This document shows, one piece after another, positions 17,813 through 51,998 of a stretch of 64,000 nucleotides of DNA; position 1 is the first letter of the stretch, and every line of letters begins with the position of its first letter. The stretch is from Pseudomaricurvus alkylphenolicus (GTDB lineage: Bacteria; Pseudomonadota; Gammaproteobacteria; Pseudomonadales; Cellvibrionaceae), in contig NZ_JAAQPI010000003.1 of the NCBI RefSeq assembly GCF_011683955.1, positions 310,001 to 374,000 of the forward strand. The letters run 5' to 3'. The position numbers and the translations under genes are program-made. The notes beneath the pieces are model-generated. The model worked only from the letters and a program-made list of their open reading frames with translations, ran no database searches and was not told the origin of the DNA.

Positions 17813-18748
17813 ATGCAATCCCAACCACAGCTCAACACCCCCGCTGAAGCCCACCTGCACGAACTGAAGCTGAATCAGATTCTTGAAAAGAAGCTCGAAG
17901 CGGCCTCCACGCGATTACTGGAAAGCGGTGCATACAGTCTGCATGTGGACTTGGAAACCATATGCAGAGATTTCAGCGCCAGCGAACCTTTTGAGCTGAT
18001 GCTGATCGAATTGAACTATAGGGATTTTCATCTCACCTGCGGTGAAATGGGCGGCACTCCCAGTGACCCCCAGGCCAGAGACGCCAGCGCGCCAATTCGT
18101 GACCAGGAGCACCACTATGGTGTTATTCGGTGTCGGTGGATTGCCGATAATGAGCACGAAATCCTGTTGAGCAGTTTGCAGGTATCCATTGCCAACCTGA
18201 TTGCAGCCACGGCCAAGCGCATTGAGCTGGAACAGAAGCTGGAACGATTAACTCGCGAGGATACCCTGACCCGGTTAAATAACCGCGGACAGTTTATACG
18301 GCTTTGTGACAGCGAAGTGGAGAGAGGATTGCGCTATGGTCACAATGCGGCGTTATTGATGATGGACATTGATAATTTCAAACTGATCAACGACCACTAT
18401 GGCCATGACATGGGGGACCGGGTACTACAGGAGCTGGGGCGCATTTTGATTGAAACGGTACGGCCCAGCGATCTTCTGGGCCGCCTGGGCGGCGAAGAGT
18501 TTGCACTGTTCCTGCCAGAGACCAGTTTGAGCGCTGCGATGGAAACTGCCGAACGTATCCGTCAATTGGTTGAGGACAGCCCGATAGCTGTTGAGGATAA
18601 ACTGCTGTCCATTACACTCAGTCTCGGAGTCTGCCCGCTCGACCACAGCGCGGAAGACCCTATGCAACAGGCGTTGGAAATGGCCGACCAGGGGCTCTAC
18701 GACGCCAAGCAGCAGGGACGCAATCGAGTCTGCTCTGTTTGTGTTTAG
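17813..18748 (+). CDS. Diguanylate cyclase (GGDEF)
   Basis: A 311-residue cytoplasmic protein. Residues 1-140 form an N-terminal region that I do not recognise, ending in a coiled-coil linker ([21 protein letters not shown]). The GGDEF domain follows: DTLTRLNNR near 150, [18 protein letters not shown] near 185-202, and the active site GGEEF at 226-230. The inhibitory-site RPSD at 217-220, five residues before GGEEF, is intact. It should make c-di-GMP with product feedback. It overlaps the 3' end of nhaA by 4 bases in convergent orientation. Confidence 0.93.
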
Positions 18749-19935
18749 GCGCCATCTGATGAGGCACTGGTTTTTGGCAGTACCATGGCCAACACCAGAT
18801 AACCGGCTACACCGGACAATAACGAGCCCGCGAGAATACCCAGACGTTCATCGAACAGCAGATTTACACCACTGGCTTCAAACGCCAGAGATCCGATAAA
18901 CAAACTCATCGTGAAGCCAACACCACAGAGCAGCGATACACCATAGAGACTGCGGAAGTTGAGACCGTTCGGCAACTTTACCAGCCCCAAGACCACACTC
19001 AACCAACAAAGCCCGAAGATTCCAATCTGTTTGCCCACCAGCAAACCCAGAGCAATCCCCACCGGTACCGGGTGCAGAAAACTGTCAAAACTGACACCTA
19101 CCATCTGCACTCCGGCATTGGCAAAAGCAAACACAGGAAGAATACCAAAGGCCACTACGCCATGCAGGTCGTGCTCAAGCTCTTTGAGCGGTGACTCGCT
19201 GGAACCTGCTGCCGGTTTTATGGGGATAAACAGGGCCAGAATCACACCCGCCAATGTCGCGTGCACGCCTGACTTCAGCACCGCCACCCACATCACCATG
19301 CCAACAAACAAATAGGGCGAAAACGAAGTCACGTGGCGCTTATTCATAACCGCCAATACCGCAATACAGCCGGCAGCCACAATCAGCGCCGACGTGGACA
19401 GATCACTGGTGTAAAACAAAGCGATGATAACAATCGCCCCGATGTCATCAAAAATCGCCAGGGACACCAGGAAAATTTTCAAGGCGAGCGGAACTCGCGA
19501 GCCCAGCAGTGCCAGAATGCCCAACGAAAAAGCGATATCCGTGGCCGCCGGAATGGCCCAGCCATTCATGGCTGTGGCGTCACCCTGATTAAAATAGGCG
19601 TAAATCAGTGCAGGAGCGACCATACCTCCGACCGCACCAACGCCTGGCAGCACTATGGCGCTGAGGTTGGACAACTCCCCTTCCAACAACTCCCGTTTAA
19701 GCTCCAGCCCGATCAAAAAGAAAAACACCGCCATCAAACCGTCATTGATCCACAACAACAGCGGTTTGGCAATTTCAAAGGCACCGATGCGCACTGCGAC
19801 CGGCATTTCGATCAGGGCGTCATAGAAGATATGCAGCGGTGTGTTTGCCGCCACCATCGCCAGGACCGCCGCAATCATCAATAAGATGCCACTGGCGGAT
19901 TCCGTATTCATAAACTTCTTAAATTCATCAAACAT
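18745..19935 (-). CDS. nhaA: Na+/H+ antiporter NhaA
   Basis: A 396-residue inner-membrane protein (E. coli NhaA has 388). The ion-binding aspartates fall at exactly the E. coli positions: Asp133 in AATDIAFS and Asp163-Asp164 in IFDDIGA. It expels Na+ in exchange for protons and supports growth in saline or alkaline conditions. The N-terminus ([16 protein letters not shown]) matches the family. It has no operon partner, and the candidate small RNA lies upstream in divergent orientation. Confidence 0.96.
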
Positions 19936-20064
19936 GAGTTAGTAGGCGCTCACACATTATACATTGCCCCCTATTCGGGCTCGACAGCTTTACACAAAGT
20001 CTACACGAAACAAAAGCAATATCGGATTAATGATGGGCTATTATTTGGGCGGATATCGGCGGCT

Positions 20065-20082
20065 TGTAGGATATATCTCACA
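20065..20082. promoter_or_regulatory. GacA/UvrY-like upstream activating box
   Basis: TGTAGG, six A/T bases (ATATAT), then CTCACA. The known GacA/UvrY box is TGTAAG-N6-CTTACA; this site matches 10 of the 12 defined positions with the correct spacing. It lies about 70-80 bases before the first GGA motif of the candidate RNA. No clear -10/-35 pair stands out between them. Confidence 0.6.
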
Positions 20083-20144
20083 CTCAAAAAGGATTTTTGC
20101 GACTATCGCCGCCGGCAGCATTGCGAGAGAATACACCCATACAA

Positions 20145-20341
20145 GGAAGTAAACAGGAACGATGCTCCGGGATCGGGCATCACATGACCAGGGAGGTCAC
20201 AGGGACACCAGATTAATGAGACGGCAATCACAGGGACATGGCTAGGGATTGGCTATAGCGGTCAGGGAATGGGATACAATTGATCGTCTCGTGAGGGACC
20301 ACAGGCGGGCTGAACCGAAAGGTTTAGCCCGCTTTACTTTT
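20145..20341 (+). ncRNA. Candidate CsrB/RsmZ-type CsrA-sequestering small RNA
   Basis: There is no credible reading frame. Ten GGA triplets occur in about 155 bases, eight of them as GGGA (ending at 20172, 20194, 20205, 20236, 20248, 20268, 20274, 20298). Several sit in hairpin loops: TGACC-AGGGA-GGTCA at 20185-20199, GATGC/GCATC around a loop with CGGGA at 20161-20181, and GGTCA/TGATC (one G-U pair) enclosing two GGGA at 20261-20285. The run ends in a strong intrinsic terminator, and a GacA/UvrY-like box lies upstream. That is the architecture of RNAs that titrate the translation regulator CsrA/RsmA. The 5' end is approximate, and the assignment rests on motifs only. Confidence 0.65.
20305..20341 (+). 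terminator. Intrinsic terminator ending the candidate small RNA
   Basis: GCGGGCTGAACC (20305-20316), a GAAA tetraloop and GGTTTAGCCCGC (20321-20332) give a 12-bp stem with one G-U pair, followed by TTTACTTTT. No protein gene precedes it on the plus strand, so it must end a non-coding transcript. Confidence 0.85.
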
Positions 20342-20412
20342 CAGCACTGATAAAAATTGGTGCGTTTCTGCCGCGCCAGATTGTCCGTATTAAGTCTCCT
20401 GATTCTGCCCTA

Positions 20413-20570
20413 GTGTCGTGAGTCTGAAGTTCGTTGAATTAATTTCAAAGCCAAAAATTAGAGAACAAGGCGGCTGGACGCAGGCGTAGTGGTGCTACGT
20501 CAAGTTCAGCCAACGCCGTTATCTGATTTTTGGCGAAGAAATTTTTCAACGAACTTCGGATTCACGACAC
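20413..20570. repeat. 158-bp near-complete palindrome (TAGTGTC family)
   Basis: The left end GTGTCGTGAGTCTGAAGTTC is mirrored by the right end GAACTTCGGATTCACGACAC. Pairing continues inward through GCCAAAAATTAGAGAACAAG and its counterpart at 20519-20535, to GGCTGGACG...GTTCAGCC near the centre. It could fold into one long imperfect stem. Its right end overlaps the last codons and stop of the epimerase gene. The ends resemble those of the short palindrome at 25921. Confidence 0.85.
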
Positions 20571-21557
20571 GAGGAAGTGCTGTTGCAATTGTTGCATCGC
20601 CTCGTCAAATCTTGTTGTGGGTGTAAACCCAAGTTTCAAGCGTGCTTTATCCGTGCAGAATTCATTAGCCCCTCCCATCAACCGCAAGGATTGCCGGGTT
20701 AACAATGGGCGCTCTTTTTGTTTCCGCACGCGACCAATAAATTCCAGTATTGGCGCCCCCAAGCGAGCCACAGCATTGGGTATCGAGCGCGGTGGCGGTG
20801 TACCCGCAACACTTGCCAATCTTTGCAGATAGGTTTTCCAGCTAACACCTTGTCCATCAGCCGCAATAAAAATATCCCCTGCATCGGCACGATCACAGGC
20901 CAGAAGCAGGGATACCAGGTTGTCGACATGGCAGAGTCCTGCGTCCCACTCACCACTTCCCAGCAAACAGGGTTTACGCTCGCGAAGCATCTCCACCATT
21001 AGATTTACCCAAGGCCCACTGCCGACGCCGTAAACATTTCCCGGGCGAACAATAACGCCTTTTAATCCGCTCGCCCGAACGGCTTCGAGGGTAATACGCT
21101 CTTGCTCCTGCTTGCAGATCTCGTAGGGAGAAGTGGCTCGACCCAATGGCGTGATCTCATTCACCCCGCCTTTGGCAAGCGCATCACCATAAGCGCAAAC
21201 ACTGGTGGTCACGACAAAACGCGCTTGCCAGAGCAATGCCAGCTCAATGGCTTCTCTGGTGCCGCCAACCGTGATATCCACATGGGTTTGCTGCGCACCC
21301 CAATCACTGACCACCGCTGCCAGATGATAAATCACATCTCTCGGAGCGAGGCATTTCGCCAGAGAAACCAGTTCTCTGACATCGCCGCTAATGATGTCGA
21401 CACGATCTTCCCACTCATCGGGAATGGGCTCGTCCGGCAACATCAGCGCCGTTACTGAATGATTGTGCTGCAGGAGCGCACGCACTAAATGTCGACCGAT
21501 AAAACCACCGGCGCCTGTGATCAAAGCCGAATCCGGCTTACGCTCATTACTGGACAT
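20562..21557 (-). CDS. NAD-dependent epimerase/dehydratase (extended SDR)
   Basis: A 331-residue protein from the ATG at 21557. The Rossmann motif is ALITGAGGFIGRHLVRALL, followed by GDVREL, YHLAAVVSDWG, a TTSVCAYGD active-site Ser, and YEICKQEQE with the catalytic Tyr-x3-Lys. This is a complete extended short-chain dehydrogenase core; the substrate may be a nucleotide sugar or a steroid-like alcohol. It follows the cupin gene by 7 bases, so the two form an operon. The final codons (Val-Ser-stop) come from the end of the 158-bp palindrome, so the native C-terminus has probably been replaced. An alternative start at 21593 overlaps the cupin gene. Confidence 0.85.
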   Translation of the reverse strand: MSSNERKPDSALITGAGGFIGRHLVRALLQHNHSVTALMLPDEPIPDEWEDRVDIISGDVRELVSLAKCLAPRDVIYHLAAVVSDWGAQQTHVDITVGGTREAIELALLWQARFVVTTSVCAYGDALAKGGVNEITPLGRATSPYEICKQEQERITLEAVRASGLKGVIVRPGNVYGVGSGPWVNLMVEMLRERKPCLLGSGEWDAGLCHVDNLVSLLLACDRADAGDIFIAADGQGVSWKTYLQRLASVAGTPPPRSIPNAVARLGAPILEFIGRVRKQKERPLLTRQSLRLMGGANEFCTDKARLKLGFTPTTRFDEAMQQLQQHFLVS

Positions 21558-21564
21558 AATCAGC

Positions 21565-22101
21565 TTATTCGCCGAAGACGATGACATTGTCACAGTTGCT
21601 GCCCTGTGCTTGGCACAGTGCGCGATAGAGCTTCAGAACGGTACGTGCATCGAGAACACTGGTCACGTCTCCATCGTCGTTGATATTGACGTTACTGCCG
21701 AAGATGGCAAACCAGACCACGGCGTCCTCTTTCGCATCGTCGGCAACCGTCAGTGTATGCACAGAGTGTGCAGGTTCGAACAGATAGGAGCCGGCCTTAT
21801 TCACCTTGCCCGGGTATTCCTTGTAGAACCACTCGCCCGATTGAGTGACCGCAAACACCGGCCCCGTGTGATAGTGAGTATCAATACCAAAGCCGGGCTT
21901 GAATCGATTTCGTACTACCCATAGATTCTGGTTCAAATCCACATGCAGAAGCTGCAGGGTGGAACCATCAGGTAGCGGTACCTGTGGCAACTCCTCATCG
22001 TGGATCAGAATTGCCTCGCGGGAGTCCTCGCGATTAATGACTCCGCCAGACATCATCTCGGCCAGCATTTCCAGAACGGGGGTTTTATTCTCGGCATTCA
22101 T
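21565..22101 (-). CDS. Cupin, 2,4'-dihydroxyacetophenone dioxygenase-like
   Basis: A 178-residue protein. The ATG at 22101 is chosen over 22260 because it follows AGGAAC and removes 53 residues that do not resemble the family. Cupin motifs are HYHTGPVFAVTQSGEW near residues 80-95 and AGSYLFEPAHSVHTL near 107-121, giving a His cluster able to bind Fe or Mn. It resembles the 2,4'-dihydroxyacetophenone dioxygenase/ChrR-cupin group, but proteins of this group vary in function, so the substrate is not assigned. It is divergent from an AraC regulator, which probably controls it together with the epimerase. Confidence 0.75.
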   Translation of the reverse strand: MNAENKTPVLEMLAEMMSGGVINREDSREAILIHDEELPQVPLPDGSTLQLLHVDLNQNLWVVRNRFKPGFGIDTHYHTGPVFAVTQSGEWFYKEYPGKVNKAGSYLFEPAHSVHTLTVADDAKEDAVVWFAIFGSNVNINDDGDVTSVLDARTVLKLYRALCQAQGSNCDNVIVFGE

Positions 22102-51424: not shown

Positions 51425-51565
51425 AGGGGTTTCTCCTCAACCTGAATATTGGATTGAGGGAGGGACAGCAAGCAGGGAGGAAGCACCGGACAAACGGCCT
51501 TCGCAGAATTCCTACCGATAAAGCCCTCCGCTTCATCGTTAAGCGCGCGGTAACGCGCCATTACT

Positions 51566-51800
51566 CGAGGCCGGTATCGGGCTTATCGCCTTAAGGTTTT
51601 TACCCAACAGGGTTTTAACCAAGAGGCGAATTACCGTTGCGGGGGCAGCGTTGGTTTTGTCCGGAACCGTTTTGGGTTCCCAAGTTGGCCTGATCCGTGT
51701 CCGGGCAGGACATCGGCCAAGAGACTCACCACTCTTCCCGTTTACCCTTGAGTCACCTAAATGCTCCTGAAAAGGAGCGCCAGTAACCTCAAGGCACCTT
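51566..51800 (-). promoter_or_regulatory. Cobalamin riboswitch controlling the btuB operon
   Basis: On the minus strand, upstream of btuB. The conserved core GCTGCCCCCGCAACGGTAA is at 51649-51631, the region CGGGAAGAGTGGTGAGTC at 51740-51723, and the B12 box AAGCCCGATACCGGCCT at 51584-51568. Order and spacing fit the AdoCbl riboswitch. Between it and the btuB start, GC-rich pairing near 51541-51560 (GCGCG/CGCGC) may form the expression platform. Bound cobalamin should shut the operon off. Outer limits are approximate; the remaining bases up to the PilZ gene show no other gene. Confidence 0.92.
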
Positions 51801-51998
51801 GAATAACGGCGGGCAGACTAAGTCCGGCGTTGCTTTTAGTCAAGCAGACGTGAGCGTATTTATCCAAATTCCTGCTAAAAAACCACCAATTTGGACATAA
51901 TCGCTCAATTTCTGAGCCAAGGTGGAGCCCTGAAAGCTGGTGACAACAGTCATCTGCCTCTACAATGGGGCAGTATCCACTGTGCGACGACAGATGCT

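Follow-up and report, generated by a model that had tools for sequence, protein, structure and literature searches.

Csr-type RNAs are well known: they soak up CsrA, a repressor of many mRNAs, when a sensor system switches them on. In E. coli, UvrY binds TGTGAGAGATCTCTTACA at csrB (PMC4682653, partial text), and the RsmX, RsmY, and RsmZ RNAs of Pseudomonas are controlled by GacA, carry several unpaired GGA/ANGGA motifs, sequester RsmA-type proteins, and have a palindromic upstream activating sequence (PMC2375449, partial text). Among marine bacteria, Pf2 and Pf3 of Pseudoalteromonas fuliginea were recognised by their GGA motifs (nine in Pf3), promoter, and terminator (PMC11882849, partial text), and CsrR1 and CsrR2 of Alcanivorax dieselolei are CsrA-related sRNAs that were found through RNA-seq (PMC9788540, partial text). 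Among the open-licence papers listed in our literature searches, none reports a Csr sRNA for Cellvibrionaceae. The genome paper for Teredinibacter turnerae describes GacS, GacA, and two CsrA homologues, and csrB or rsmZ go unmentioned in the portion of it consulted (PMC2699552).

We analysed a 64,000-nucleotide stretch of the Pseudomaricurvus alkylphenolicus genome (the window) and find that the plus strand from 20139 to about 20340 is very probably the gene for a Csr/Rsm-type, CsrA-titrating RNA of ~200 nt, lying behind a GacA/UvrY-type box. This reading is built on what the sequence itself contains, namely the box, the display of GGA motifs in the predicted fold, the terminator, homologues and siblings of the RNA, and genes for CsrA and GacA. 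The features of the locus are as follows.

18745-19935, minus strand: nhaA (NhaA by NCBIfam)
20065-20082, plus strand: GacA/UvrY-type box TGTAGG-ATATAT-CTCACA (sequence match; equivalents at two orthologues and two siblings)
20100-20108, plus strand: CGACTATCG, putative promoter element (recurs as variants at sibling loci, by eye)
20127-20132, plus strand: -10-like GAGAAT (compared with G023 and L317, GAGAGAATA)
20139 to about 20340, plus strand: predicted Csr/Rsm-type small RNA, ~200 nt (both ends placed indirectly)
20139-20181, plus strand: 5' module common to the sibling RNAs, diverged in the window copy (best match of model R2 in the window)
20161-20181, plus strand: hairpin GATGC..GCATC exposing CGGGA (predicted fold)
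20185-20199, plus strand: hairpin TGACC-AGGGA-GGTCA (predicted fold)
20218-20224, plus strand: 5' arm GAGACGG of a long-range stem, pairing with 20284-20290 (compensatory changes in G004)
20238-20256, plus strand: hairpin ATGGC..GCTAT with loop AGGGA (predicted fold and pair comparison)
20284-20290, plus strand: 3' arm TCGTCTC of the long-range stem, pairing with 20218-20224 (compensatory changes)
20291-20302, plus strand: hairpin GTG-AGGGAC-CAC with an ANGGAN hexaloop, conserved (sequence and pair comparison)
20305-20332, plus strand: intrinsic terminator stem-loop, followed by TTTACTTTT to 20341 (sequence and terminator scan)
20562-21593, minus strand: NAD-dependent epimerase-type gene (Pfam PF01370)

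The candidate lies on the plus strand of the 626 bp gap between nhaA and the epimerase-type gene, a stretch upstream of nhaA that the original prediction had described as gene-free. No ORF of at least 63 aa is found in the gap, and a 62-aa TTG ORF (19964-20152, plus strand) ends where the RNA begins; translation of a three-species alignment, covering the plus strand, gave no frame that is open in all three species across the RNA, which is consistent with a noncoding transcript. The start at 20139 is placed by the match to model R2 and by the spacing from the box to the first GGA, and the end by the terminator. Ten of the 12 fixed bases of the box are identical to TGTAAG-N6-CTTACA, close to that sequence as had been claimed, and variants of CGACTATCG appear by eye to lie ~18-26 nt 3' of the box at sibling loci. 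A consensus scan for sigma-70 promoters passed none, and an intrinsic terminator was found at the same locus. Its stem, GCGGGCTGAACC-GAAA-GGTTTAGCCCGC, has 12 pairs including one G-U, in agreement with the 12-bp, GAAA-looped terminator originally described, and its tail TTTACTTTT is modest. Beside the RNA gene, positions 20408-20578 form an imperfect palindrome of ~170 bp with ends TAGTGTCGTGAGTCTGAAGTTCGTTGAA and near-complement; it occurs at eight places in the source genome including its own, three of them partial, and therefore looks like a small mobile (MITE-like) repeat.

The RNA sits immediately upstream of nhaA both in the window and in two relatives, which raises the question of a cis-acting leader or riboswitch of nhaA in place of a trans-acting RNA, for which nhaA-I and nhaA-II are riboswitch kinds that could be considered. 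However, nhaA is on the minus strand, and the box, the displayed GGA sites, and the terminator, the conserved features of the locus, point away from it on the opposite strand. No nhaA-associated riboswitch family of Rfam matches either strand, even at E 10, and siblings of the same layout are present elsewhere in the genome. We therefore consider an nhaA leader extremely unlikely, and favour the Csr/Rsm-type RNA.

Ten GGA motifs, eight of them as GGGA, had been reported for this locus, and both counts are correct for 20130-20302, which also holds seven ANGGA and six AGGGA; the full interval 20065-20341 has 12 GGA because two fall in the box and the promoter. The raw GGA count is not exceptional, as 403 of 2000 dinucleotide shuffles reach ten and one minus-strand stretch of the window reaches 11. 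Eight or more GGGA occur in 4 of 2000 such shuffles, seven or more ANGGA in 12 of 2000, and six or more AGGGA in 0 of 2000. The plus-strand maxima of the window for both ANGGA and AGGGA are at this locus, and none of the 173-nt minus-strand stretches of the window attains its count of either motif. The proposal that GGGA loops depart from the usual AGGA or ANGGA was mistaken: AGGGA is ANGGA with G as N, and the CsrA SELEX consensus includes ARGGA (PMC7652899, partial text), so that these loops are not unusual.

The predicted folds suggest that the GGA motifs are displayed and not buried in stems, as had been anticipated. The RNA fold is more stable than its shuffles (z = -4.8; -2.9 and -3.2 for the orthologues), and in the predicted ensemble the unpaired probability averages 0.5 or more for nine of the ten GGA triplets. 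The overall mean is 0.82, compared with 0.55 in shuffles of the body that preserve the GGA triplets, of which 0 of 300 reach the observed mean. The hairpin TGACC-AGGGA-GGTCA, the clearest of those originally noted, is present at 20185-20199. The GTG-AGGGAC-CAC hairpin would present an ANGGAN hexaloop of the kind described for RsmE binding (PMC7652899, partial text), although the window RNA leaves this stem unformed at minimum energy. As for the long-range stem GAGACGG/TCGTCTC, one fold has it in its centroid but not at minimum energy, and the folds used for GGA accessibility lack it. When a 25-pair structure of the 3' domain is applied to the three sequences, 98.7% of cells are paired and five pairs have changed on both sides, whereas at most 46.7% of cells are paired if the partners are slid by 1 to 3 columns. 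Because there are three sequences and the structure was partly derived from them, this covariation supports the structure and does not prove it.

Two genomes of the same genus (G003 and G004) keep the box, the GGA-rich RNA, and the terminator upstream of nhaA, with equivalents of the 20065-20082 box upstream of both orthologues (L002 and L003). The window copy has ten GGA and each relative eight. Five of the ten triplets align in all three species and, in the three-species alignment, conservation of the GGA columns does not significantly exceed that of the others (19/30 versus 68/135, p = 0.14); the RNA therefore drifts. Csr sRNAs are said to be without sequence conservation (PMC11882849, partial text). 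A covariance model of the 3' domain (R1) finds the RNA in three of six genus genomes, a patchy distribution: the box and GGA-rich RNA expected in relatives are kept by two diverged genomes of the genus, and R1 does not detect the RNA in the other three. Among 30 nhaA loci examined (L035-L064), the box plus GGA-rich stretch is present only in the source genome (G000), G003, and G004; the nhaA locus of G002, of the same genus, is without it. Across 144 family genomes, R1 gives E <= 0.1 in nine, three of them with the nhaA-type copies, and one further site is an RNA between rpsA and ihfB in the source genome; this search used Infernal with stricter filters, so weak copies may be missed. Six other weak R1 sites resemble bare terminators or coding sequence and were set aside. 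When 77 genomes, the source genome among them, were searched at the DNA level with this stretch of the window, 51 had matches at E <= 1; on reading, only two beyond the window are real homologues, and the other matches listed are short. Many of these are to the box, which later proved a useful lead.

This patchiness also bears on whether the locus is a decaying Csr RNA gene, formerly functional and now a remnant. Such decay would fit with the failure of R1 to find the locus in three of six genus genomes, with a 5' module that has diverged further in the window copy than in the other two nhaA-type copies, and with two siblings that could take over. The window copy has nevertheless kept the box, the terminator, and ten GGA against eight in each relative, nine of the ten are predicted to be accessible, and the stems are compensated. 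We regard decay as very unlikely, and a functional titrating RNA as the better reading of the same data.

Standard covariance models had been expected to miss this RNA, and they do. No Rfam family, those for CsrB, CsrC, RsmX, RsmY, and PrrB/RsmZ included, matches the window RNA on either strand or the orthologues L002 and L003 at gathering, and a search of both strands of 19800-20600 up to E 10 gave only eukaryotic microRNA models at chance level. At E <= 0.05, the sole Csr-type match at 14 sibling or related GGA-rich loci is CsrC on one rpsA-ihfB sibling (L189), with 21 bits against a gathering threshold of 61. The sequence is thus outside the described families, and the original assignment to a CsrB/RsmZ family stands for the layout and for the probable mechanism, a CsrA sponge of known kind, and not for Rfam sequence families. 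At gathering, Rfam matches the window just once, at a cobalamin riboswitch (51552-51806, minus strand).

The source genome appears to hold at least three sibling RNAs of this layout, as a box and a GGA-rich RNA are also found at rpsA-ihfB and on contig C23. The rpsA-ihfB sibling, between the gene for an S1-domain protein (rpsA) and ihfB, is GGA-rich with a box (TGTCAGCGATTTCCTACA) and a terminator, and is a weak R1 site (E 0.005). Upstream of ihfB, a box followed by at least six A(N)GGA is present in all five genus genomes that yielded an ihfB locus (L187 for the sibling in G002) and at none of the 25 ihfB loci examined from other genera (ihfB was found in 75 of 77 genomes and 30 loci were examined). 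The C23 sibling adjoins a PilZ-domain gene, with the box followed by 21 GGA in 300 nt, and has counterparts in G003 and G004 whose 3' ends match its own.

These RNAs have a 5' module in common, which we modelled from RNAs of other loci, leaving aside the nhaA-type RNAs (model R2). R2 matches the nhaA-type RNAs of G003 and G004 with E values of 7e-11 and 6e-10, and within the window it ranks 20139-20181 first, weakly (E 0.006 to 0.008, with the next best match elsewhere at 0.34), beginning at the deduced RNA start. The nhaA-type RNA therefore belongs to the same sibling family, with the window copy diverged. Among 390 genomes of the order, R2 gives E <= 0.1 in 43; strong matches (E < 1e-4) are confined to eight genomes, seven of them of the same family, and those at E 0.004 to 0.1 across the order are probably mixed.

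A loose pattern for the box (TGTNNGNNNNNNCNNACA) is unspecific and was discarded, with 109 matches in the source genome and 115 for a reversed control. It becomes specific when a GATAT core is added: TGTNNGATATNTCNNACA is found in 99 of 144 family genomes, compared with 7 of 144 for the reversed pattern. Seven places in the source genome match it, five of them without a GGA-rich RNA beside them (counting as GGA-rich six or more A(N)GGA in 300 nt); many boxes are without such an RNA, so a box by itself is not enough to make a Csr RNA. Among the matches listed outside the genus (122 distinct boxes at 121 loci, with L005, L009, L010, L011, and L020 left out and repeats with identical flanks dropped), a 260-nt stretch to one side holds five or more A(N)GGA at 48 boxes and eight or more at 18; the corresponding shares of random positions, which were drawn from mostly coding loci, are 3.3% and 0.7%. 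In 32 GGA-rich loci the spacing from the box to the first A(N)GGA is 59-63 nt in 20, 42-44 nt in eight, and 71-75 nt in four, in a count that skipped any GGA closer than 42 nt after the box; GGA richness was the basis on which these loci were selected, so the spacing is the one informative feature. In the window RNA this distance is 62 nt.

These data are pertinent to a structured intergenic stretch with no Csr role, be it an sRNA of another kind or AGGGA repeats that arose by chance beside a stray palindrome. The unexceptional raw GGA count (403 of 2000 shuffles) and the five of seven GATAT-type boxes that have no GGA-rich RNA beside them would agree with it, whereas the layout, which is conserved among relatives and siblings, and the distance of 59-63 nt between box and first GGA at 20 of the 32 GGA-rich loci would not; we judge this very unlikely. 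The full layout of a CsrA/RsmA-titrating RNA, as originally proposed, is instead suggested by the GGA display, the two orthologues, and the two siblings.

Several other boxes were observed in different contexts. GacA-type boxes at L174:1374 (plus strand) and on the minus strand of L245 (1501 of the reverse complement) are upstream of two related small ORFs with the motif ARxQxLxxxPSAYESL, and a third related ORF is just before the L174 box; in a regular-expression search of the examined loci, such ORFs were seen only in the source genome. The L250 box (470, reverse complement) is ~100 bp upstream of a frame that reads by eye as a DEAD-box RNA helicase (AHTGTGKT). In L011 (G011), boxes at 1501 and 1832 (reverse complement) are 331 bp apart with a GGA-rich stretch after each, and these are apparently tandem Csr RNA genes.

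The protein partners of such an RNA are encoded in the source genome. Four CsrA matches exceed the Pfam cut-off, one of them a 62-aa ORF beginning MLILTRRIGE, which we take to be the usual CsrA start. A response regulator with receiver and LuxR-type domains adjoins uvrC and pgsA; its best NCBIfam family is UvrY/SirA/GacA at 255.5 bits, below the cut-off of 280, with the next family at 123.9. The four csrA-like genes are on contigs C34, C3, and C7 of one 8.9-Mb genome (G000), and that on C34 adjoins an ATPase gene that by eye resembles a conjugation-type ATPase.

From these components we infer transcription, GacA dependence, CsrA binding, and titration in the following form. The phosphorylated GacA/UvrY orthologue would bind the palindrome at 20065-20082, which lies ~65 bp before the putative start near 20139, and activate a promoter that has a weak -10 and lacks a clear -35. 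A noncoding RNA of ~200 nt would be made, ending at the 20305-20332 terminator, and its ten mostly unpaired GGA sites would bind CsrA dimers, removing them from mRNAs so that CsrA-repressed genes could be translated.

A broader proposal is offered tentatively, as falling a little short of an even chance. Cellvibrionaceae may have an undescribed and rapidly changing set of sibling Csr RNAs, marked by the common 5' module and by a GacA box with GATAT at its centre, ~65 bp away from the start. The nhaA sibling of the host genus could then be one in which a long-range-stem domain presents several GGA sites as a unit, and the occurrence of the same box before protein genes (a DEAD-box helicase and a small coiled protein) could mean that the direct Gac regulon extends beyond sRNA genes. 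Sequence drift makes Csr RNAs hard to find, and here a search by the GacA box and its distance from the first GGA picks them out where Rfam has no match. Many Cellvibrionaceae are polysaccharide degraders, and such finds would open their Gac/Csr switch to study.

The RsmX, RsmY, and RsmZ RNAs of Pseudomonas are similar in size to the RNA described here, and their genomic places differ from the nhaA locus. They share with it the unpaired GGA/ANGGA motifs and an upstream palindrome, although it has no match to the RsmX/Y/Z Rfam models. Like CsrB and CsrC of E. coli (RF00018 and RF00084), the RNA is predicted to be noncoding, with many GGA sites, a UvrY box upstream, and an intrinsic terminator, and the boxes described in this work are similar to that of E. 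coli csrB, TGTGAGAGATCTCTTACA (PMC4682653, partial text). It has ten GGA compared with 22 in CsrB and 14 in CsrC (PMC11882849, partial text), and the geometry differs, as the box is at about -65 from the deduced start here and centred at -183/-182 at csrB (PMC4682653, partial text). The Pf1-Pf3 and CsrR1/CsrR2 RNAs, compared by description, belong to other lineages and genomic sites, and as portrayed in the partial texts they are, like the candidate at nhaA, lineage-specific Csr sRNAs of marine gammaproteobacteria.
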